A stretch of DNA of 64,000 bases. Source: Phormidium tenue FACHB-1050. Lineage in GTDB: Bacteria > Cyanobacteriota > Cyanobacteriia > Pseudanabaenales > Pseudanabaenaceae. The position numbers were made by a program, and so were the translations under genes. A model generated the notes under the pieces. The model saw only the letters and a program-made list of their open reading frames with translations, searched no databases and was not told the DNA's origin. The stretch lies in NCBI RefSeq assembly GCF_014696925.1, contig NZ_JACJQY010000002.1, forward strand, positions 186,001-250,000, in the 5' to 3' direction. Positions 2,346-12,437 of the stretch are shown one piece after another (positions within the stretch are counted from its first letter, which is position 1; each line of letters starts with the position of its first letter).

Positions 2346-2384
2346 AAAGAGGAGAGATAATGCTTCGCATTATTTCTCCTCTTT
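2346..2384. terminator. Bidirectional hairpin terminator
   Basis: Inverted repeat with arms AAAGAGGAGAGATAATGC and GCATTATTTCTCCTCTTT around TTC, one G-T pair. It lies between the convergent glycosyltransferase and the NapH-like fusion gene. Confidence 0.8.
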
Positions 2385-4569
2385 AAGTAGGGATAACAAT
2401 AATTAGCCACAAGGCGATCGCTAAAACTAGGGTACTCAAATGTTGAGGAAGTAGCGATCGCCAAGTTTGTCGCGCAATCTTTTGGGTCAAAGCCCATGTT
2501 AAAAGTACGGAAAAAATTAACGTTGTTCCTTGCAGAAACTCAATCACCGCAGGATGAGCGATGAAAATTGGTAGATTCGAGCCATCTAGCCCAAAAGTTG
2601 CCCAACTAACTGGCAATATTCGCCCCGCTTCTTGAAGAAATAAGCGTAGATAATGCGCCAGATTTGCTCCCAATACTAAGGGCAAATATCCATAGGCGAG
2701 CTGAATAAATGGTCTAGGCTTACAGGTAGTAATACCATAGGGAAGCTGATAATCTTCGCAATTCTTTTTCCAGATGATCGTAAGCCAATAGAGCGATCGC
2801 ATAATTCCATGAGCAACTAAGGGAATTAGCGCCGCAACAATTAAAATGAGTAGCGATACGGCTAAATGGGGCAAGAGAAATTCGTTACTAGTCGGCAAAC
2901 TTAACGCTGTTTCGATTTCTGGCAATCGATGCAAAAATGCGCCACCAAGCAATAACAATAGCAAGGCAACTTCATAGTTACGTGGAACATGGGTTGTCCA
3001 TAATTCGATCGCAGGAGGTCGGAGATTGAACTCCACTGATCGGTGGGGACAAGCTTTAAGGCAGGTCATGCATAACACACAGTCTCGATTATCTTGCAGT
3101 TGAGCAGGATGGGAATACAGTGGACATCCATTGGTTTCTAAGCCTTCGCCTTTTTGAACGCCGCCTTTATAGCATTGATAGGTTGTACATTCGGCTGAAC
3201 AGGTTCCCTGCTGAGCGCGTAATTCTGTCATGGAGAGTTTGGCAAATAATCCATTCATGCCACCAATCGGACAAAGATAGCGACACCAATACCGACGCTC
3301 AAAAATCAGGGAACAGATCATTGCGCCAGCCGTAATCAATAGTAATAAATATGCCGAGAGATAAGCCGTATTTTGTAAGTCCCAAAGTTCTTCCCAAAGA
3401 TAAATCAATACGAATAGACCGAATAAGAACCATCCACCCCAACGTTCAGCCCAATCACGATTCCAAGATTTAAGTTGGCGTGGAAACAGCCACAAAGAGA
3501 GCTTCTGCACAACTTCACCGTAAATCATAAATGGGCAGATGGAACACCATAGTCGTCCCACAAAAGGAAAGCTAATTAAGATTAATGGCCACCACCATGC
3601 CCAAAAAAAGTTAAGCGCAATATTGCGATCGCGGGTTTGAGGTGCTAAAAATAGCGTTGCGACAACAATTGCAAAAAAGGTGAAGGTAAATCCATAGTTA
3701 ATGCGATCAGGAAACCAGTCACTGCGTAAAAATCGACGTAGATCAGGAAAGGCATTGAGCAGATTAAACCGAAACTTTTTGCCCTTGGGTTGAGTTGACC
3801 AAAATACTGATTCATCTAGCGATCTCGCACCCTGTGACTGCAATATCGCCCGTTCCACCAATAATTGCAGTTCTTTGAGATTGCCAGTGAAGTCATAGCT
3901 TTGGAGACTGCGTAGAGCTTCAGCAGTGATCGTGGGCTTGGGAATCCCGCGATCGCGACAAAATAGACTGATGTAATATTCCACATGGGGTTTAATATCG
4001 ACTTTTCGCACTCTCAAGGATGGAACCTTAATCGAATGTTTAATATGGGATGCACAAGCTGATTGACGTTTCTCGGAAACCATGATGATCCTTGCTTCGC
4101 AGATTAGAGGTGGATCAGTTTCATCACTGCCGACTTGCCTAAAGATTCCCTTTTCTAGAAGTTGGACGATTTTAGGAATTAGTTCTTTCGGTAACTCTTG
4201 AATATTATTTAAGACGAGAGTTCCCTTTCCCAAATACGTTAATAAGCCGTGATTTCCACCTGCACGCCCAAATAAATCTGCGCCACTGGTTTGGACAACA
4301 CTACAATTCACTTTTGCGATCGCTTCTCGTCGTTGTGCCGAATTAAAATGAATCAGAGCCGCAATATTGTCTTTGTCTAGTCCTGGTTCGCCCAGAATCA
4401 ATACTGATTGTCGATCTTCACTCGCTTTTTTAATCTCTTGCCGTAATCTGGTGGCATAGCGACTCTTGCCGATAATTCCCCGTTCAGCCTTAGTAATCAG
4501 ATAGGGTTGCAAAACCTGCGATCGCTCTTGCATCCACTCTAAAGAAGTCTCAGAATAATTGGAAGACAT
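2383..4569 (-). CDS. Degenerate sigma-54-activator-like AAA+ domain fused to a NapH/NosR-type 4Fe-4S membrane protein
   Basis: The frame is open to a TTG at 4707. I prefer the ATG at 4569 (about 728 residues) because the region before it includes a TATACT box at 4603-4608 and lacks a ribosome site; the start is uncertain. Residues about 30-250 align with NtrC-type ATPase domains (LFGRAGGNHGLL, LILNNIQELP-like TLVLNNIQELP). However, Walker A reads GEPGLDKD, the GAFTGA loop is missing and Walker B has NN instead of DE, so ATP hydrolysis and sigma-54 contact look lost. The rest has several membrane helices, CSICPF and CRYLCPIGG motifs, a cysteine group CSAECTTYQC and a ferredoxin motif CVLCMTCLKACP, as in NapH/CcoG electron-transfer proteins. 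The role is probably redox-linked at the membrane; partners are unknown. Confidence 0.7.
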   Translation of the reverse strand: MSSNYSETSLEWMQERSQVLQPYLITKAERGIIGKSRYATRLRQEIKKASEDRQSVLILGEPGLDKDNIAALIHFNSAQRREAIAKVNCSVVQTSGADLFGRAGGNHGLLTYLGKGTLVLNNIQELPKELIPKIVQLLEKGIFRQVGSDETDPPLICEARIIMVSEKRQSACASHIKHSIKVPSLRVRKVDIKPHVEYYISLFCRDRGIPKPTITAEALRSLQSYDFTGNLKELQLLVERAILQSQGARSLDESVFWSTQPKGKKFRFNLLNAFPDLRRFLRSDWFPDRINYGFTFTFFAIVVATLFLAPQTRDRNIALNFFWAWWWPLILISFPFVGRLWCSICPFMIYGEVVQKLSLWLFPRQLKSWNRDWAERWGGWFLFGLFVLIYLWEELWDLQNTAYLSAYLLLLITAGAMICSLIFERRYWCRYLCPIGGMNGLFAKLSMTELRAQQGTCSAECTTYQCYKGGVQKGEGLETNGCPLYSHPAQLQDNRDCVLCMTCLKACPHRSVEFNLRPPAIELWTTHVPRNYEVALLLLLLGGAFLHRLPEIETALSLPTSNEFLLPHLAVSLLILIVAALIPLVAHGIMRSLYWLTIIWKKNCEDYQLPYGITTCKPRPFIQLAYGYLPLVLGANLAHYLRLFLQEAGRILPVSWATFGLDGSNLPIFIAHPAVIEFLQGTTLIFSVLLTWALTQKIARQTWRSLLPQHLSTLVLAIALWLIIVIPT

Positions 4570-4828
4570 AATTCTTAATAGGCTCATGCTATTGCCAATT
4601 AGAGTATACTCTCTCGGCTGAAACATAAAACTGTAGGCAAAGTTGGCGCAAAACACCACCAAAGACAAACCCAGCAAGCACCAAAGTGGCGGCGCTTGCT
4701 GAACCAAATCATATCTTCATTATTTCCTCATTTTCTTTGTTGATAATGTTGAGACAGCCAATAGATAAACTTAGGAGCGAAGGATTGGGTGATCTCTAAT
4801 ACGTTTAGCATTTTGATAGGAGAGAACT

Positions 4829-6697
4829 TTGAAGATTTTACTGGTTGAAGATGATTTGCACTCAGCGGCAATACTCTTGCAACTACTGGCAGAATCTCAT
4901 TACACCATTGATGCAGTAGCCGATGCAAAAACGGCTTGGCAATATGTGGAAACCTACGACTATGACTTGATCATTCTCGATGTGCCTGATAGTAATGGGC
5001 TGGGGCTATGTGCCAAGCTTCGCAATGAGGGCTATACCACTCCTGTGTTGTTACTGACGGCTAAGGATAGTACTAGCGATCGCGTGATGGGGTTAGAAGC
5101 AGGAGCCGATGACTATGTGGTGAAGCCCTATCACTTTCAGGAATTGGTGGCCAGAATTCGGGCGCTATTACGTCGCTACCATGAAGGCGATACACTCATT
5201 CAGGAATTCGGGTGGGAGGGCTTGCGGCTGGATCTCAAGACGAATACTGTTACTTATAAGCAACAACCTTTACGGTTAACTCAAAAGGAATATGGATTAT
5301 TAGAAATATTTCTTAGACATCCACAACAGATATTTAGCCGTAGTGCTTTGATTGATCAGGTATGGTCGGCGGGAGAGTTTCCCAGTGAGGAAGCCGTAAC
5401 TACGCATATTAAGGGATTACGCCAGAAGTTGAAGGCGGCGGGATTGCAGACAGATCCCATAGAGACTTTATATGGATTGGGTTATCGGCTCAAATCGGCT
5501 CCTGTACAAGCAAACGCTGAGCCTGTGGTGATCAGTCCTCTAGCTGACAAACCTGTAATTAACAAAGACATTTCGCCACTCGATAAGGCGCGAATACAGG
5601 AAGTGATTGCGGTTATGGCTCAGAAATTAATCGCGAGTTTGCCAGAAACGATCGCTATGTTCCGACAGGTAGCGATCGCTTTAGCGCAGGACGAGTTGGG
5701 TTCGGATCTGCGTTATGAAGGATATATGCAAGCACATCGACTGATTGGCTCTTTGGGTTCATTAGGATTTCCTGAAGGATCAGCGATCGCCCGTCAGCTT
5801 GAAGTGATGCTACATCGAGATTTTTCTTTGTCTATCTTTGATGCGGAGTTGCTACAGCAATTGGTTACCAAGCTCGAAGAGGTTACCCTAAATCCTTCAC
5901 CACCAATCGCTGCGGAGCCAACCATACTCCTATCCAATTATTCACCATTACCTCTATTATTAATCGTTGATGATGATGTTCGATTTATACAGGAGATTCA
6001 ACTAGAGGCGGGAACTTGGGGAATGCGGGTACAAGCAGCGGTTGATCTGAAAACTGCTAGAGAGAAAATTGCGAAGGAAGTACCTGATGTAATTCTGTTA
6101 GATATTATGTTTCCTGATTCTAGTGAGAACGGGCTGAGTTTTTTAGATGAACTGGCTCAGAGAGAGACGCAAATTCCGACGGTGATGATGACTGCTGCGA
6201 GTGGATTGAGCGATCGCGTGATGGCAGCACGTAAGGGCAGTTGCTCATTTATTGAGAAACCTGCTTCTACAGAAAAAATCCTGAGTACGGTGTCGCAGGT
6301 CTTATCTCAACGGCATATGGGTCGCCCCAAGGTGATGATTGTTGATGACGACCCAAATTCGCTCAAAGTCTTGCGACAACTACTAAAACGTTATGATGTT
6401 AAGGTGACGACTTTGCAGGATTCTAAGCAGTTTTGGCAAGTTTTAGAGTCAACTTGTCCTGATCTGTTAATTTTAGATTTTCTCATGCCTTACTATAGTG
6501 GGCTTGATTTGTGCCAAGCAGTGCGAACGTCTTCTCGCTGGCATGATTTACCAATCGTTTTTTTATCGGCTCAGAGCGATCGCGAAACAATTCGGCAATT
6601 ATTTATCGCGGGTGCTGATGATTATCTGAATAAGCCAATTGCTGAGAGTGATGTATATACACGCATTCTCAGTCGTTTAGCTCGGAGTCGCCTGTAG
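4829..6697 (+). CDS. Multi-domain response regulator REC-wHTH-HPt-REC-REC
   Basis: 622 residues from TTG, supported by AGGAGAG 4 bases upstream. Residues 1-115 form an OmpR/PhoB-type receiver (acceptor D51, K99). About 125-222 form a winged-helix DNA-binding domain ending in LYGLGYRL. About 255-350 look like a histidine phosphotransfer domain, with H303 in AHRLIGSLG. Two more receivers follow, with acceptors D425 (LLDIMFPDS) and D550 (LILDFLMP). All three receivers keep the acidic pair, acceptor and lysine, so all may be phosphorylated. It could integrate several kinases and act on DNA itself. It heads a + strand signalling cluster and is divergent from the iron-sulfur fusion gene. Confidence 0.88.
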   Translation: MKILLVEDDLHSAAILLQLLAESHYTIDAVADAKTAWQYVETYDYDLIILDVPDSNGLGLCAKLRNEGYTTPVLLLTAKDSTSDRVMGLEAGADDYVVKPYHFQELVARIRALLRRYHEGDTLIQEFGWEGLRLDLKTNTVTYKQQPLRLTQKEYGLLEIFLRHPQQIFSRSALIDQVWSAGEFPSEEAVTTHIKGLRQKLKAAGLQTDPIETLYGLGYRLKSAPVQANAEPVVISPLADKPVINKDISPLDKARIQEVIAVMAQKLIASLPETIAMFRQVAIALAQDELGSDLRYEGYMQAHRLIGSLGSLGFPEGSAIARQLEVMLHRDFSLSIFDAELLQQLVTKLEEVTLNPSPPIAAEPTILLSNYSPLPLLLIVDDDVRFIQEIQLEAGTWGMRVQAAVDLKTAREKIAKEVPDVILLDIMFPDSSENGLSFLDELAQRETQIPTVMMTAASGLSDRVMAARKGSCSFIEKPASTEKILSTVSQVLSQRHMGRPKVMIVDDDPNSLKVLRQLLKRYDVKVTTLQDSKQFWQVLESTCPDLLILDFLMPYYSGLDLCQAVRTSSRWHDLPIVFLSAQSDRETIRQLFIAGADDYLNKPIAESDVYTRILSRLARSRL

Positions 6698-6775
6698 GTA
6701 AAGATCAGATTGCGACATCAGATTGTCCTCATTTTTATATTTTATGATCAACGAATTATAGTCAGAGGTAGCTTT

Positions 6776-7177
6776 ATGGCTCAACCTATAGAGACAGTTA
6801 CTAATACCAAAACCATCCTGTTAATTGATGATGATGAGATGAGTCGCTGGTTGGTGCAGTTATGTTTAGAAAATTTTGTTAATTGGCAAATAAAAGTTGC
6901 GATCTCAGGTAAAGCAGGGATATCGGCGATCGCTAAGGCGAAACCCGATGCGATTTTATTAGATATTATGATGCGAGATATGGATGGGTTTACTTTTATG
7001 GAAAAATTAAGAGCTGATAGACTAATCCCATATATCCCTATAGTTGCGCTGACATCCTGTACTAACAGGTTTAACTATCAGACATTTATCGATTTTGGAT
7101 GCCAAGGTGTAATTAGTAAACCCTTCAATCCACTCACCCTTGGTTCAAAAATTTCTCAGATATTAGGTTGGTCATGA
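6776..7177 (+). CDS. Single-domain response regulator (CheY-like)
   Basis: 133 residues from ATG 6776, with AGAGGTAG upstream; an earlier in-frame start at 6710 lacks a ribosome site. The receiver shows TILLIDDDEMSR, acceptor aspartate in AILLDIMMRDMDG, conserved Thr/Ser in VALTSC and the lysine in ISKPFNPL. There is no output domain, so it probably passes phosphate or controls a partner by binding. Its stop codon overlaps the phytochrome start by 4 bases (ATGA), which suggests translational coupling with the kinase. Close relatives lie downstream at 12443 and 12966. Confidence 0.88.
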   Translation: MAQPIETVTNTKTILLIDDDEMSRWLVQLCLENFVNWQIKVAISGKAGISAIAKAKPDAILLDIMMRDMDGFTFMEKLRADRLIPYIPIVALTSCTNRFNYQTFIDFGCQGVISKPFNPLTLGSKISQILGWS

Positions 7178-9480
7178 ATACATTTTTACAGCAGCTCGCT
7201 CATAATTTCGATGAATCTGAAGCGGTTAATCTGACTAACTGCGATCGCGAGCCGATTCATATTCCTAGCTTGATTCAGCCCCACGGACTATTGATGATAC
7301 TTACCGAGCCAGATTTGCGGATCGCTCAGGTGAGCGCCAATGCCCTTGAGGTTTTAGGAATAGCGACCGATGATTTACTCGATCGCCCCTTAGCAGAATT
7401 TGCAGGCGACGAACTGATTAAATCAATTCAAGCTTGTCTCGAACACAATTTTGAATATCCCAATCCTCTACGAGTTGAGTTTGACGATTTGGGCGATCGC
7501 TTACCTCTGGTTTTTAATGGCATTGTGCATCGCGCCCCCACAAATGAAATTGTCTTAGAATTAGAACCTTGCGAACCATCGGCGGGAAGTGATTTTTTTC
7601 AGTTCTATCACCAAATCAAACATAATCTTGCCAAAATCCAGACTGCAAAAGACTTAAGCGCATTATGCGATCTAGTAGTACAGGAAGTACAAGCCATAAC
7701 AGGATTTGATCGCGTGATGATCTACCGCTTTAGTGAGCAGGGGGATGGAACTGTGATTGCTGAAGTTAAACAGCCTGATCTAGAGGCTTTTCTAGGACTA
7801 CGATATCCTGACACAGACATTCCGAAACAGGCGAAACATCTCTACACCCTCAACTGGTTGCGCTTAATTCCAGATGTAAATTATCAACCCATAGGTTTAG
7901 TTAGTCATGAAACGGAATCACCCATTCAAAAAGCTCCCCTTGACATGAGTTACTGTGCCTTGCGATCGGTTTCACCAATCCATCTTGAATATCTGCAAAA
8001 TATGGGGGTGACAGCTTCAATGTCTATTTCTCTAATTCAAAACAAAAAATTGTGGGGATTGATCGCCTGTCACCATTACACGCCTAAATTTATTCCCTAT
8101 GGGACTCGGACTATCTGTGAATTTTTGGGACAGTTGATGTCAACGGAGTTAGCCAATAAAGAAGCTAACGAAAATCTGGATTACAAACTCCAACTCAAAA
8201 CAATTCAAGGTCAGTTTGTAGAACGTTTGACCAAAGCCACGGGATTTGTGGATGAACTCGACCATGATCACGAAGCGTTATTGAGTCTTACGGCTGCTCA
8301 AGGTGCGGCTATTTGCGATGGCGATCGCCTGATTTTGATTGGTGAAACTCCTGATGAGCTAGCCGTGAAATCTTTGCTAACTTGGCTAGAGGCTCACTTA
8401 GAGCAGGATCTTTTTGTTACCGATGCTTTGCCCAGTATCTATGCTGAGGCGTTGGAATATCAAACGATCGCTAGTGGCTTAATGGCGATCGCCATTTCCA
8501 AAATCCAGCACCGCTATGTTCTTTGGTTCCGTCCTGAGCAATTGCAAACTGTGACTTGGGCAGGCGATCGCGATAAACCGACCCAAATAGCTGAGGATGG
8601 TAGTATTCGTCTCCTTCCGCGTCAATCTTTTGCAGCTTGGAAAGAAATCGTAAGCGGCAAGTCTAACCCTTGGTTGTCCTGTGAAGTAGACAGCGCGATC
8701 GAACTACGACAGGCGATCGTTGATATTGTCTTGCGACAAGCCAATGAACTCGCCAAGATCAACGCAGATTTGGCGCGTAGTAACAGCGAACTTGATGCTT
8801 TTGCCTACATCGCTTCCCATGATTTAAAGGAACCTTTGCGCGGAATTCATAACTATGCCACTTTTTTGTTAGAAGACTATGGCGAAATTCTTCAGAGTGA
8901 TGGAGCCGACAAGCTGCATACATTGGTAAAACTGACTACACGGATGGAAGCATTGATTGAATCTTTGCTGAAATTCTCACGGTTAAGCCGTCAGGATTTA
9001 CAAATGGAACCCCTTGATCTCAATCTCTTATTGCAAAATGTGAGAGAACTATTTGCGATGAATCCACAATGGCAAAACTGCAAGATTCAAATCCCGCGAT
9101 CGCTACCGATGGTAATGGGCGATCGCCTTTTAATCGAAGAGATTTTTATTAATTTAATTACCAATGCCTTTAAATACAATGAAAATCCTGAAAAATTGGT
9201 AGAAATTGACTGGCTTACGGAGCAGCCGAAATCGCCTTTCGTAACGATCTACGTGCGTGATAATGGCATTGGCATTCGCGAGAAGCATTTGGAATCAATC
9301 TTTCAAATCTTCAAACGGTTGAATTCACCTAACAAATATGGCGGTGGTACGGGCGCGGGGCTAACCATTGTCCGAAAGATTGTGGAAAGGCACAAAGGTA
9401 ATATTCAAGTACAATCTAACTACGGACAAGGAACCACCGTTTCTTTTACGCTACCTGCAAGTGATTCAAGTTTTCAATGA
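7174..9480 (+). CDS. Bacteriophytochrome histidine kinase (PAS-GAF-PHY-HisKA-HATPase)
   Basis: 768 residues from ATG 7174; a TTG six bases earlier is less likely. The N-terminal PAS (about 20-120) carries TNCDREPIHIPSLIQPHG with Cys23, the biliverdin-attachment position of BphP-type phytochromes. The GAF (about 150-315) has YPDTDIPKQA, and where Cph1-type phytochromes carry Cys-His it reads SVSPIHLEYL, so that cysteine is absent. The PHY domain has the tongue motif LLPRQSF. HisKA has the H-box IASHDLKEPLRG, and the ATPase has N and G boxes. It is likely a red/far-red light sensor that autophosphorylates and signals to the overlapping downstream receiver. No heme oxygenase gene is visible in the window. 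Confidence 0.92.
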   Translation: MNTFLQQLAHNFDESEAVNLTNCDREPIHIPSLIQPHGLLMILTEPDLRIAQVSANALEVLGIATDDLLDRPLAEFAGDELIKSIQACLEHNFEYPNPLRVEFDDLGDRLPLVFNGIVHRAPTNEIVLELEPCEPSAGSDFFQFYHQIKHNLAKIQTAKDLSALCDLVVQEVQAITGFDRVMIYRFSEQGDGTVIAEVKQPDLEAFLGLRYPDTDIPKQAKHLYTLNWLRLIPDVNYQPIGLVSHETESPIQKAPLDMSYCALRSVSPIHLEYLQNMGVTASMSISLIQNKKLWGLIACHHYTPKFIPYGTRTICEFLGQLMSTELANKEANENLDYKLQLKTIQGQFVERLTKATGFVDELDHDHEALLSLTAAQGAAICDGDRLILIGETPDELAVKSLLTWLEAHLEQDLFVTDALPSIYAEALEYQTIASGLMAIAISKIQHRYVLWFRPEQLQTVTWAGDRDKPTQIAEDGSIRLLPRQSFAAWKEIVSGKSNPWLSCEVDSAIELRQAIVDIVLRQANELAKINADLARSNSELDAFAYIASHDLKEPLRGIHNYATFLLEDYGEILQSDGADKLHTLVKLTTRMEALIESLLKFSRLSRQDLQMEPLDLNLLLQNVRELFAMNPQWQNCKIQIPRSLPMVMGDRLLIEEIFINLITNAFKYNENPEKLVEIDWLTEQPKSPFVTIYVRDNGIGIREKHLESIFQIFKRLNSPNKYGGGTGAGLTIVRKIVERHKGNIQVQSNYGQGTTVSFTLPASDSSFQ

Positions 9481-9971
9481 ATAATCTCTTAACCTCTCCT
9501 TGGGATGACCTCACCCATCCCATCATTCTCATCGTTGAAGATAGCGATGAAGACTTCTATATGTTTATGAGAGCTACCCAAAATCTCGATGCATTAGAGC
9601 GATCGCTTTATCGGTTTTTACGATTTGACAATGGTGATGAGGTTCTTGACTATCTATTTCGACGAGGTGAATATCAAAACCTCAAGGCTCCTTTACCCGT
9701 TGCTATGCTGCTCGATCTCAACTTACCAGGAACCGATGGTCGAGACATTATTCAGCAAGTAAAGCAAACTACCCATTTACAAACTCTGCCAATTATCGTT
9801 TTGACCACATCCAGCAGTCAACGCGATATTCAAACCTGTTACGAGAACGGAACCAACAGCTATACACTCAAACCGATGGGCGTTACCGCTATGCAACAAA
9901 CTATTCAGATCCTGTTTCAGCATTGGTTTCAAGTTGCGGTGCTACCTAGCTACGGACAGTTCCCCACCTGA
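9477..9971 (+). CDS. Rcp1-like response regulator, partner of the phytochrome
   Basis: 164 residues; its ATG overlaps the phytochrome stop (ATGA), so the two are translationally coupled. The receiver has IILIVEDSDEDFYMF, acceptor aspartate in AMLLDLNLPGTDG, LTTSSSQRDI and the lysine in YTLKPMG. This is the long-loop type typical of Rcp1 proteins encoded next to cyanobacterial phytochromes. It lacks a DNA-binding domain. It probably receives phosphate from the upstream kinase; the next step, perhaps through the adjacent hybrid kinases, is inference. Confidence 0.9.
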   Translation: MNNLLTSPWDDLTHPIILIVEDSDEDFYMFMRATQNLDALERSLYRFLRFDNGDEVLDYLFRRGEYQNLKAPLPVAMLLDLNLPGTDGRDIIQQVKQTTHLQTLPIIVLTTSSSQRDIQTCYENGTNSYTLKPMGVTAMQQTIQILFQHWFQVAVLPSYGQFPT

Positions 9972-9989
9972 AATCCCGCGTGAAATCTT

Positions 9990-12437
9990 ATGATCTCGAC
10001 ATCATCTCCCTTAGACTCCGCCATTAGCATTTTGATTGTCGATGATTCGGCAGAAGATCGCGCTACTTACATTCGCTATCTGCGATCGGATACTCGCCAC
10101 TATACTTTTTTGGAAGCTGAAACCCTAGAGGAAGGTATAGATTTATGGCGATCGCAACATCCCGATATTGTCCTCATTGATTATTTTCTGCCCGATGGTG
10201 AGGGTTGGGAGTTGTTAGCTGCAATGGGCGAAGGTGAGCTTATACCAAAGCTAGCGGCGATCGTCTTAACTGGGAATAATGGCGATGAACAGAAGATCCT
10301 CCAAACAATGCGGTTGGGAGCTGCCGACTATCTGGTTAAGGGAGAAGTTACTGCCATATCCCTATGTACCCGTGTTGGGCAGGTGGGCGATCACATCATG
10401 CTTACCCGTCAACTCAAGCGATCGCAAAATCAGGAACTTTTAGTTGCCAAAATATCGCTACATATTCGGCAATATCTTGGTTTGGAAGAAATTCTCTATG
10501 AGATTGTGCAGGAAGTCCGCAATTTTTTCAAGGCCGATCGCACCGTTGTTTATCAGTTCAATCCTGATTTCAGTGGCTTGGTGGTAGCTGAGTCGGTCTT
10601 TCCACCTTGGGAAACCTGTTTGCATCGACAACTCAGTGATGAATATTTTCCTGAAAATGTAGGAGGAGAATATCGTCAAGGAAGAGTCTTTGTGGCTCCT
10701 GATGTATATCAGGCAAATCTTAGTGAATGTCATTTGCAAATGCTAGCTAGCTTTCCCACAAGGGCAAGCCTAATCGTACCGATCCTTCGCCCCAATGACA
10801 AAGGTAATCCGCTGTGGGGTTTGCTCTGTACCTATCAATGTTTTGAGCCTCGTGTTTGGCAAGAGTCAGATATTCGCTTACTTCAGCAATTATCCGTACA
10901 GTTAGCGATCGCCATCCAACAAGCAGAACTCTATCGCGATGTCCAAACCAGCAATACCGAATTAGAAAATCGGGTTACAGAGCGCACTGCCGAACTTTTT
11001 AAACGTCAACAGGAATTTGTTGCCCTTGTTGAAAATTCTCCTAACGTGATCTTGCGCCTCGATCGCCAAATGCGTCACCTCTATATCAATCCAGTTGCTG
11101 AAGCGAGATCGGGCGTTCCTGTGTCTGCCTTTTTAGGTAAAACATTCCGTGAATTGGGATTGCCCAAAAAAAATGTGGATATGGCGGAAGCTGTTTTCAA
11201 AGAGTTATTGGCAACAGGTCAAAATCAACGGTATGAAATTGAATTTCCATCACCCACAGGATTTGCCTATTACCAAGTAGAAAACATTCCTGAATATGAT
11301 CTTGATGGTGAAATTGCCACCGTACTGATGGTATATACCGACATTACCGCCAATAAAATTAATGAAATTGCACTCACCGAAGCAAACCGCCGTTGGCAAT
11401 CCCTATTAGATAATGTGCGCCTCATTGTGGTGGGACTAAACTCTGAGGGCATCGTGGAATATGTGAATCCATTTTTTCTAGATTCCGCAGGTTATCAGTT
11501 AGAAGAAGTCATCGGCAAAAATTGGTTTTCTTACTTTTTACCCCACACTGAACAAGAGGCAGTAGAATCGGCTTTTTTCGGCTCACCCATCAGTTCCGAT
11601 AACTTCTATAAATATTATCAAAACTCCATTGTCACCAAAACAGGTGAAGAAAGAATAATCGCTTGGAACAATACGCTCCTTCACAATCAAAATGAGGAAA
11701 TTATTGGCTCAATGAGCATTGGTGAAGATATTACCGAAAAGTTAAAGGTTGAGCGCATCAAAGATGAATTTATTTCCATTGTTAGCCATGAACTACGTAC
11801 ACCCTTAACATCAATTCGGGGCGCATTAGGACTGCTTGCCTCAGGTGTATTAGCCAACAAACCCGAAGTTGCTAAGAATATGATCGATATTGCGGCGAAC
11901 GACATTGAGAGGTTAGTCCGTCTGGTCAATGATATTTTGGACTTAGAGCGCTTAGAATCCAATAGAGTAAACCTTGATCGCCAATGGCACGATACGGCAG
12001 ATCTATGTCGCCAAGCCGTTGAAACCATGAAAGAGATCGCCACCGCAAGCCAAATCCAAATCTTAGCTGAGTGTAAATCCTTTCAAATTTTTGCTGATAG
12101 CGATCGCCTTGTTCAGACCCTAGTTAATTTACTAAGTAATGCGATTAAGTTCTCACCACCACAAAGCCAAGTTGAAATCCAAATAGAATCTCTTGCGGAG
12201 GAAATTATGTTTCATATCAGCGATCGAGGTCGGGGCATACCCGAAAAGTATATAGAAAGCATTTTTGGGCGTTTTAACCAAGTCGATGCTTCTGATTCTC
12301 GACAGATGGGAGGCACAGGTTTAGGTTTAGCCATCTGTCAAAGTATTGTGCAGCAACATGGAGGCAAAATATGGGTTAAAAGTAAATTGTCAGAAGGAAG
12401 TACGTTCTCATTCACAATTCCCCACCAAAGAAAATAA
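9990..12437 (+). CDS. Hybrid histidine kinase REC-GAF-PAS-PAS-HisKA-HATPase, cyanobacteriochrome-like GAF
   Basis: 815 residues, soluble. An N-terminal receiver (acceptor D64 in VLIDYFLPDG) is followed by a GAF (about 165-310), two PAS domains (about 345-450 and 465-585), HisKA with SIVSHELRTPLTS and a complete HATPase (NLLSNAIKFS, GGTGLGLAIC). The GAF resembles bilin-binding cyanobacteriochrome domains: RTVVYQFNPDFSG, then Cys247-His248 in NLSECHLQML at the usual chromophore cysteine, and LWGLLCTYQC. The second-cysteine motif DXCF is DEYF here, so any bilin would be held by one cysteine. It lies 18 bases after the Rcp1-like gene and 5 bases before another receiver, so probably one operon. 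Confidence 0.85.
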   Translation: MISTSSPLDSAISILIVDDSAEDRATYIRYLRSDTRHYTFLEAETLEEGIDLWRSQHPDIVLIDYFLPDGEGWELLAAMGEGELIPKLAAIVLTGNNGDEQKILQTMRLGAADYLVKGEVTAISLCTRVGQVGDHIMLTRQLKRSQNQELLVAKISLHIRQYLGLEEILYEIVQEVRNFFKADRTVVYQFNPDFSGLVVAESVFPPWETCLHRQLSDEYFPENVGGEYRQGRVFVAPDVYQANLSECHLQMLASFPTRASLIVPILRPNDKGNPLWGLLCTYQCFEPRVWQESDIRLLQQLSVQLAIAIQQAELYRDVQTSNTELENRVTERTAELFKRQQEFVALVENSPNVILRLDRQMRHLYINPVAEARSGVPVSAFLGKTFRELGLPKKNVDMAEAVFKELLATGQNQRYEIEFPSPTGFAYYQVENIPEYDLDGEIATVLMVYTDITANKINEIALTEANRRWQSLLDNVRLIVVGLNSEGIVEYVNPFFLDSAGYQLEEVIGKNWFSYFLPHTEQEAVESAFFGSPISSDNFYKYYQNSIVTKTGEERIIAWNNTLLHNQNEEIIGSMSIGEDITEKLKVERIKDEFISIVSHELRTPLTSIRGALGLLASGVLANKPEVAKNMIDIAANDIERLVRLVNDILDLERLESNRVNLDRQWHDTADLCRQAVETMKEIATASQIQILAECKSFQIFADSDRLVQTLVNLLSNAIKFSPPQSQVEIQIESLAEEIMFHISDRGRGIPEKYIESIFGRFNQVDASDSRQMGGTGLGLAICQSIVQQHGGKIWVKSKLSEGSTFSFTIPHQRK

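Follow-up and report, generated by a model that had tools for sequence, protein, structure and literature searches.

What does a domain derived from sigma-54 activators do in a membrane protein of a cyanobacterium? The question is raised by a gene at positions 2383 to 4569, on the minus strand, of a 64,000-nucleotide stretch of the Phormidium tenue FACHB-1050 genome (contig NZ_JACJQY010000002.1, positions 186,001 to 250,000), which we call the window. An earlier note on this DNA described the product as an NtrC-type AAA+ domain with disarmed motifs, joined to a NapH-like iron-sulfur membrane protein. We find that the fusion is real, that the loss of motifs is shared by its homologs, and that the family is found in most of the cyanobacterial genomes searched. 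The reading we favor, to which we give about an even chance, is that this is a membrane redox protein in which a non-hydrolysing AAA switch, with or without a cyclic-nucleotide-binding-type domain (CNBD), would serve as a regulatory or oligomerising cap.

An intact gene for a two-part protein

The gene is a single intact frame of 728 amino acids, with an ATG start at 4569, a stop at 2383, and zero internal stops. An in-frame extension reaches upstream to a TTG at 4707 (4570 to 4707, minus strand, as for all features of the gene given below), and it probably lies outside the translated protein, because in nine near relatives the frame, measured from stop to stop, spans just 725 to 760 amino acids. 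The nearest named relative is in Pseudanabaena sp. SR411 (97% identity), and eight Pseudanabaena-type loci (L037 to L044) hold relatives at 79 to 97% identity.

In the window protein, Pfam places Sigma54_activat (PF00158) at residues 32 to 167 (61.3 bits, cut-off 20.2), AAA_lid_14 (PF25601) at residues 186 to 247 (40.7 bits, cut-off 27), and Fer4_5 (PF12801) in two stretches (37.8 bits, cut-off 22). These scores are above the curated cut-offs, and therefore the domain make-up is not a product of chance. NCBIfam assigns sigma-54 activator models to approximately residues 26 to 256 and NapH/MauN to residues 336 to 515. An AlphaFold model of the whole protein has a mean predicted local distance difference test score (pLDDT) of 84.5 and a predicted template modelling score (pTM) of 0.66, with residues 455 to 479 and parts of 489 to 498 below 50.

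A AAA+ domain without its catalytic glutamate and sigma-contact loop

The AAA+ core (residues 32 to 168, window 4066 to 4476) has the Sigma54_activat fold. The NtrC-type shape recognized by the earlier note is borne out by the Pfam matches to core and lid and by the model, in which residues 27 to 258 (core plus lid) align with FleQ and NtrC1 at a Z score of approximately 25, with a root-mean-square deviation (rmsd) of 2.1 over 226 residues. The motifs also read as they had been quoted: the P-loop, or Walker A motif, is GEPGLDKD (residues 60 to 67, with Lys66; 4369 to 4392), and Walker B is LVLNNI (residues 118 to 123; 4201 to 4218), with Asn-Asn in place of Asp-Glu. Where the GAFTGA (L1) loop would stand (residues 97 to 111; 4237 to 4281), alignment with NifA and NtrC1 leaves a gap. 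The lid (residues 186 to 247; 3829 to 4014) begins with LRVRK, which we take to be arginine-finger-like; in the main group of relatives defined below, R186 is present in 76/76 members and R188 in 72/76.

How general are these changes? We aligned the window protein with 92 relatives; 76 of the 93 members, including the window protein, belong to a main group and 17 to a paralogous group. The P-loop lysine is kept in all 93. The residue after it is Asp throughout the main group (76/76), and the residue before it is Glu in 48 members, Asp in 13, Gly in 13, and Asn in 2. Canonical P-loops of bacterial enhancer-binding proteins (bEBPs) read GKE, and the NifA row of the alignment shows GESGTGKE; compared with GKE, the KD of the window P-loop is, as a sequence change, conservative, and it is chiefly the preceding glycine that has changed. 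At Walker B, the Asp position is Asn in 74/76 main-group members and the Glu position is Asn in 73 and Lys in 3. The paralogous group has a P-loop ending in GKT (16/17) or GKI (one member), keeps the Walker B Asp in 10/17, and has Asn for the Glu in 17/17. Neither GAFTGA nor a looser variant of it is found among the 93 members of the two groups, the distance from LFG to Walker B is 13 to 15 residues in every one, and the catalytic Glu is kept in none. Because no aligned member keeps either the catalytic Glu or the sigma-contact loop, their loss is a family trait, whereas the change of Asp to Asn is typical of the main group. No intact homolog speaks against the earlier description. A set of eight picocyanobacterial rows, one of which (L104) is also among the 93, keeps the Asp in 6/8 and the Glu in 0/8, and lacks the LFG stretch in 2/8.

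Among seven Pseudanabaena-type sequences, the mean ratio of nonsynonymous to synonymous substitution rates (dN/dS) is 0.08 for the AAA core (10/21 pairs usable), 0.09 for the lid (18/21), 0.04 for the membrane/Fe-S part (21/21), 0.14 for the C-terminal helices (19/21), and 0.50 for a 25-residue N-terminal linker (21/21); dS is near saturation, which makes these ratios rough. They nonetheless show purifying selection on the AAA part. On average, the window protein is 60% identical to main-group members over the AAA core and 80% over the membrane/Fe-S part; for the paralogous group the figures are 26% and 59%.

One family member, of 1134 residues in genome G398 (L121:1604-5005), carries two tandem AAA domains, the first with GEAGVGKV and LVLDH and the second with GEPGLGKD and LLLNN. 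Genomes G404 and G412 have frames of similar length.

Sigma-54 in the host and in cyanobacteria

Can a sigma-54 partner be found for this domain? The host genome (5.6 Mb, completeness 99.98%) gives no match to the rpoN families PF04552 and PF04963; of 14 control genomes, 4 are positive in each search, including Escherichia coli and Bacillus subtilis. The earlier note's view that this host is without sigma-54 thus survives the search. Of 386 genomes of the phylum, 11 have a PF04552 match at an E value of 0.001 or better and two have one above the cut-off. One of the two lies outside the class (23.1 bits); the other, in the class genome G125, scores 62.1 bits in a 207-residue frame aligned to positions 33 to 159 of the DNA-binding domain. 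This small frame (L117:1459-2067) is an orphan sigma-54 DNA-binding domain match in a lineage generally without rpoN. The host genome also has five further PF00158 matches (E values of 8e-7 to 1.7e-4), which say little because the same search is positive in all 14 control genomes. PMC3162934 lists 29 cyanobacteria without sigma-54 and its activators, and states that UniProt contains many false activator calls, also for species without sigma-54; PMC12316311 names two exceptional cyanobacteria with rpoN.

The protein thus resembles bEBPs such as NtrC, NifA, and FleQ in its core and lid, its P-loop lysine, its presumed arginine finger, and its fold. Unlike them, it has neither GAFTGA nor the Walker B Asp-Glu, carries a membrane Fe-S module, and stands in a genome with no sigma-54 match. 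It also differs in that no helix-turn-helix or other DNA-binding family is matched by Pfam at E values up to 1, the lid running instead into the membrane module. A C-terminal DNA-binding domain is absent in some true bEBPs as well. Among PDB sequence matches of the AAA part, the second-best is VpsR, which reads LLLND at Walker B.

A remote relative of NapH in the membrane

The membrane Fe-S module occupies residues 265 to 728 (2383 to 3777), as delimited by the two PF12801 matches, the NapH/MauN match, a model with long helices, and a homolog in Deinococcus ficus. Among its helices lie a CX2CP motif (residues 342 to 346; 3532 to 3546) and a CX3CP motif (residues 429 to 434; 3268 to 3285), in each of which both cysteines are kept in 93/93 members. 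They are accompanied by a 4Fe-4S motif in a ferredoxin-like segment with eight cysteines (residues 457 to 508; 3046 to 3201), where model confidence is low, ferredoxin-type Pfam families match weakly near residue 500, and the number of cysteines would suffice for two 4Fe-4S clusters. Each of the 12 Fe-S cysteines is Cys in every row that covers it (91 to 93 of 93, the remainder being gaps).

The earlier note's fusion to a NapH-like protein is confirmed, with the likeness being a remote one: TIGR02163 (NapH/MauN) matches at an E value of 1.9e-12 and 47.2 bits, far under its curated cut-off of 213.05, and by this measure the membrane part is a distant relative of NapH and not a certified member. 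It shares with the NapH/MauN type, whose kindred ferredoxin membrane proteins include CcoG and NosR, the two CXnCP motifs among membrane helices and the 4Fe-4S ferredoxin motif; unlike that type, it has extra C-terminal membrane helices, a AAA/CNBD cap, and other neighbors. Modeled alone, the module reaches a pLDDT of 83.3 and a pTM of 0.85. A fold search of this model against the PDB gave no match at an E value of 0.001 or better, and the best structural comparison (Z score of 7.7, rmsd of 6.5 over 119 residues) concerns mostly the C-terminal helices. A sequence-profile search for a solved relative returned just ferredoxin-like scraps, with E values of 0.06 and 0.09. The order of the helices would put the CXnCP motifs and the ferredoxin segment on the cytoplasmic side, where the AAA domain would also lie.

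The Deinococcus ficus protein WP_027463891 (452 residues) is homologous to the module over nearly its full length, with 414 aligned columns at 30% identity; unlike the window protein, it has no AAA or CNBD part. Because this stand-alone copy exists, the module can presumably work without a cap, and on sequence grounds it is at least a separable unit. This single case further suggests that the CNBD-AAA part was added onto the membrane module. On the D. ficus plasmid pDFI1 (L116:7042-9323), the upstream gene, which overlaps that of the stand-alone module, encodes a His-rich protein with no Pfam match, and DUF305 and DUF3105 genes are near.

A CNBD-type domain in most relatives

The window protein has no Pfam match to PF00027, the cyclic-nucleotide-binding type familiar from CRP/FNR-type domains. 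In this it differs from most relatives: PF00027 is above cut-off ahead of the AAA part in 6/7 relatives scanned, with a Cyanobium member (L104) as the exception. On a FastTree tree of 109 rows, rooted at the midpoint and with long branches of which the program warned, the CNBD is present in 85 rows and lacking in 24, and the fewest changes that explain this pattern are 8. Four of the 24 rows (L076, L079, L083, and L085) are shortened or frameshifted sequences; the remaining apparent losses are in a Pseudanabaena clade (10 rows), a picocyanobacterial clade (8 rows), G014, and G087. In one paralog aligned with kinase CNBDs from the PDB, the segment at their FGE motif reads FGY, and because Tyr replaces the Glu, classic cyclic-nucleotide binding by this domain appears doubtful. 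PMC3516471 labels Synechocystis slr0593 a cAMP binding membrane protein; slr0593 may be an ortholog. In two genomes (L134:3641-5736 in G342 and L127:3877-5857 in G257), two overlapping frames together make up the gene, through a natural split or a sequencing error; in G342 the break falls between the AAA part and the membrane part.

Distribution and surroundings of the gene

A search with a 40-row alignment finds the family at an E value of 1e-60 or better in 261 of 388 genomes of the class, a count that pools the main and paralogous groups in a draw favoring the window's own genus and family. The same search is positive in 225/334 good-quality genomes and 125/160 genera, and 10 genomes of the window's own genus are listed without a match. 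The window protein alone matches 125 of 386 genomes of the phylum at an E value of 1e-10; 21 of these are outside the class, and since those align over one part only, at 25 to 34% identity, they are evidently other proteins. A genome scan for the family, with patterns derived from the query, returned 74 loci, all bearing cyanobacterial titles, which given such patterns does not demonstrate that other lineages are without the family.

Do neighboring genes indicate a function? For the main group, no neighbor is widely kept among the 74 loci examined. Glycosyltransferases form a cluster in 9 loci, in differing arrangements that probably reflect how common that family is, and two further clusters (10 and 9 loci) vary in distance and strand. 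The window gene itself has among its neighbors a glycosyltransferase and a response regulator. Adjoining it on the plus strand (4829 to 12437) is a signaling cluster with a three-receiver response regulator with a winged helix, a phytochrome histidine kinase (PAS_2-GAF-PHY), and a GAF/PAS hybrid kinase; on the minus strand, 514 to 1203 encodes a putative Uma2-type endonuclease.

Upstream of 57 main-group loci, NtcA-type sites show no clear enrichment (strict, 6 loci versus 6.05 in shuffled sequences; relaxed, 44 versus 39.7). A conserved element of the form GATAAT-N4/5-TTATA stands 40 to 47 bases upstream of the inferred start (34 bases in L011) in 16/57 loci, such as L017, L020, and L031, against a mean of 0.07 and a maximum of 2 in shuffles, a comparison in which the loci are related and kinship is uncontrolled. 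It may be a core promoter or an iron-box-like site.

A paralogous group linked to cysteine synthase

The paralogous group (40 to 46% identity to the window protein) forms a supported clade in the tree, which includes L126. Among the 18 paralog loci with enough downstream sequence, 15 have a cysteine synthase gene directly downstream on the same strand, at a distance that ranges from overlap to approximately 300 bases between stop-to-stop frames; L095, L103, and L126 are the usable loci without one. Four other loci (L087, L089, L097, and L109) have too little flank and are outside the 18. L105 and L109 were assigned to the group by identity, the neighbor in L101 is cut by the contig end, and L105 is counted despite a paralog gene lying in three frames (L105:3621-6447), a pseudogene or a sequencing error with the cysteine synthase still downstream. 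All three neighbors tested exceed the curated cut-off for cysK. In 68 other loci, not all with full flanks, a cysteine synthase is near in one (L128), on the opposite strand. A check of gene neighbors, as the earlier note proposed, is thus informative for the paralogs and gives no widely kept partner for the main group.

The pair is kept in both plasmid copies, one from Pseudanabaena galeata and the other from Aulosira laxa. Near the P. galeata paralog are DsrE, rhodanese, and ArsR-type genes and an FAD oxidoreductase with a remote likeness to sulfide:quinone reductase (98 bits versus a cut-off of 525); on the A. laxa plasmid, the paralog is instead accompanied by an ArsP-type permease and a MerR-type regulator. 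In L109, approximately 3 kb upstream of the paralog, a metallo-beta-lactamase/rhodanese fusion (L109:2164-3816) is remotely like a sulfur transferase/dioxygenase (94.6 bits versus 625), another hint at sulfur handling. By its gene neighborhood, then, the paralog is linked to sulfur handling, and a sulfur species is the reduced product suggested by its operon-like pairing with cysteine synthase. For the window's own group, a sulfur link would be an extrapolation from the paralogs. This paralog with an intact P-loop, the CNBD-type domain of most relatives, and the stand-alone module of Deinococcus are all additions to the earlier account.

What might the fused AAA+ domain do?

In the mechanism that we favor, the conserved working part would be the NapH-type module, moving electrons on the cytoplasmic side of the membrane by way of its CXnCP motifs and eight-cysteine segment. 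This module would be preceded by a regulatory cap, made of CNBD-type and AAA+ domains in most relatives and of the AAA+ domain alone in Pseudanabaena. The cap would no longer contact sigma-54 and has almost certainly lost ATP hydrolysis; most likely the retained P-loop lysine still lets it bind a nucleotide or a related ligand, and it would switch electron flow by oligomerisation or gating. Nucleotide binding is made plausible by the presence of that lysine in 93/93 members. The earlier proposal of a repurposed ATPase is therefore well founded as to the conserved disarming, the fusion, and the lack of rpoN; that the domain regulates redox chemistry or senses nucleotides is a prediction, as are the direction of electron flow and the control of one part by the other.

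Several observations weigh against this mechanism. Conservation is much lower in the AAA part than in the Fe-S part, and two of the eight picocyanobacterial rows lose more of the AAA part; both facts fit a mere scaffold equally well. The glycine before the P-loop lysine is replaced in 63/76 main-group members, which may weaken nucleotide binding. The varied neighborhoods of the main group do not indicate a substrate. The chief competitor, which we regard as unlikely but in need of serious attention, is accordingly a vestigial, ligand-free scaffold that positions or assembles the membrane module. The missing Walker B carboxylates, the altered P-loop glycine, the erosion in picocyanobacteria, and the absence of the CNBD from several separate branches would suit it; the invariant lysine, the invariant Arg186 of the main group, and the low AAA dN/dS speak against it.

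The protein might instead be a membrane-tethered transcription regulator that works with sigma-70-type polymerase, like TyrR, DhaR, and HupR, with a NosR-like redox input. NosR has such a redox-input role, and VpsR, TyrR, DhaR, and HupR are DNA-binding regulators that share with the window protein a defective GAFTGA; the AAA part resembles VpsR in both sequence and fold. Disarmed, sigma-70-dependent EBPs are documented in PMC3162934. However, ours is a membrane protein with no DNA-binding domain found and a lid that continues into the module, and we consider this regulator improbable. Slightly less remote, yet still distinctly unlikely, is that the module is a reactive-sulfur reductase, which would reduce persulfide, thiosulfate, or a similar compound and pass sulfide to cysteine synthase, with the main group using an unlinked cysteine synthase. 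The frequent pairing with cysK and the sulfur genes around the P. galeata copy favor this proposal, but three usable paralog loci have no cysteine synthase, and the main group, including the window gene, has no such neighbor on the same strand. An ordinary sigma-54 activator, as suggested by one paralog plasmid record annotated as a nitrogen assimilation regulatory protein, or a chimeric or frameshift artifact, can be dismissed, given the open-frame fusion in many genomes, the lack of an rpoN match, and the absence of GAFTGA from all 93 aligned members.

Implications

Among the papers listed by literature searches (titles and the starts of abstracts, with most subscription journals and bioRxiv outside their reach), we saw no description of this AAA+/Fe-S membrane fusion, which may yet be in print elsewhere. 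We tentatively suggest, with less confidence than in the capped redox protein itself, that these proteins are a cyanobacterial class of membrane electron-transfer proteins whose gate is a non-hydrolysing AAA+ nucleotide switch descended from sigma-54 activators, in a lineage generally without sigma-54, and that the GKT paralog links this machinery to cysteine synthase in the handling of reduced or reactive sulfur. An activator-derived domain sits in a membrane redox protein in two-thirds of the class genomes searched (261/388), and a former component of transcription control appears to have found a new use in regulating membrane chemistry. The paralog offers a direct handle on this system through cysteine synthase and sulfur metabolism. 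If the cap does gate electron flow, membrane redox chemistry would here be using a AAA+ fold as its nucleotide switch, and the family would be a test case for how a signaling ATPase is repurposed after the loss of its partner.

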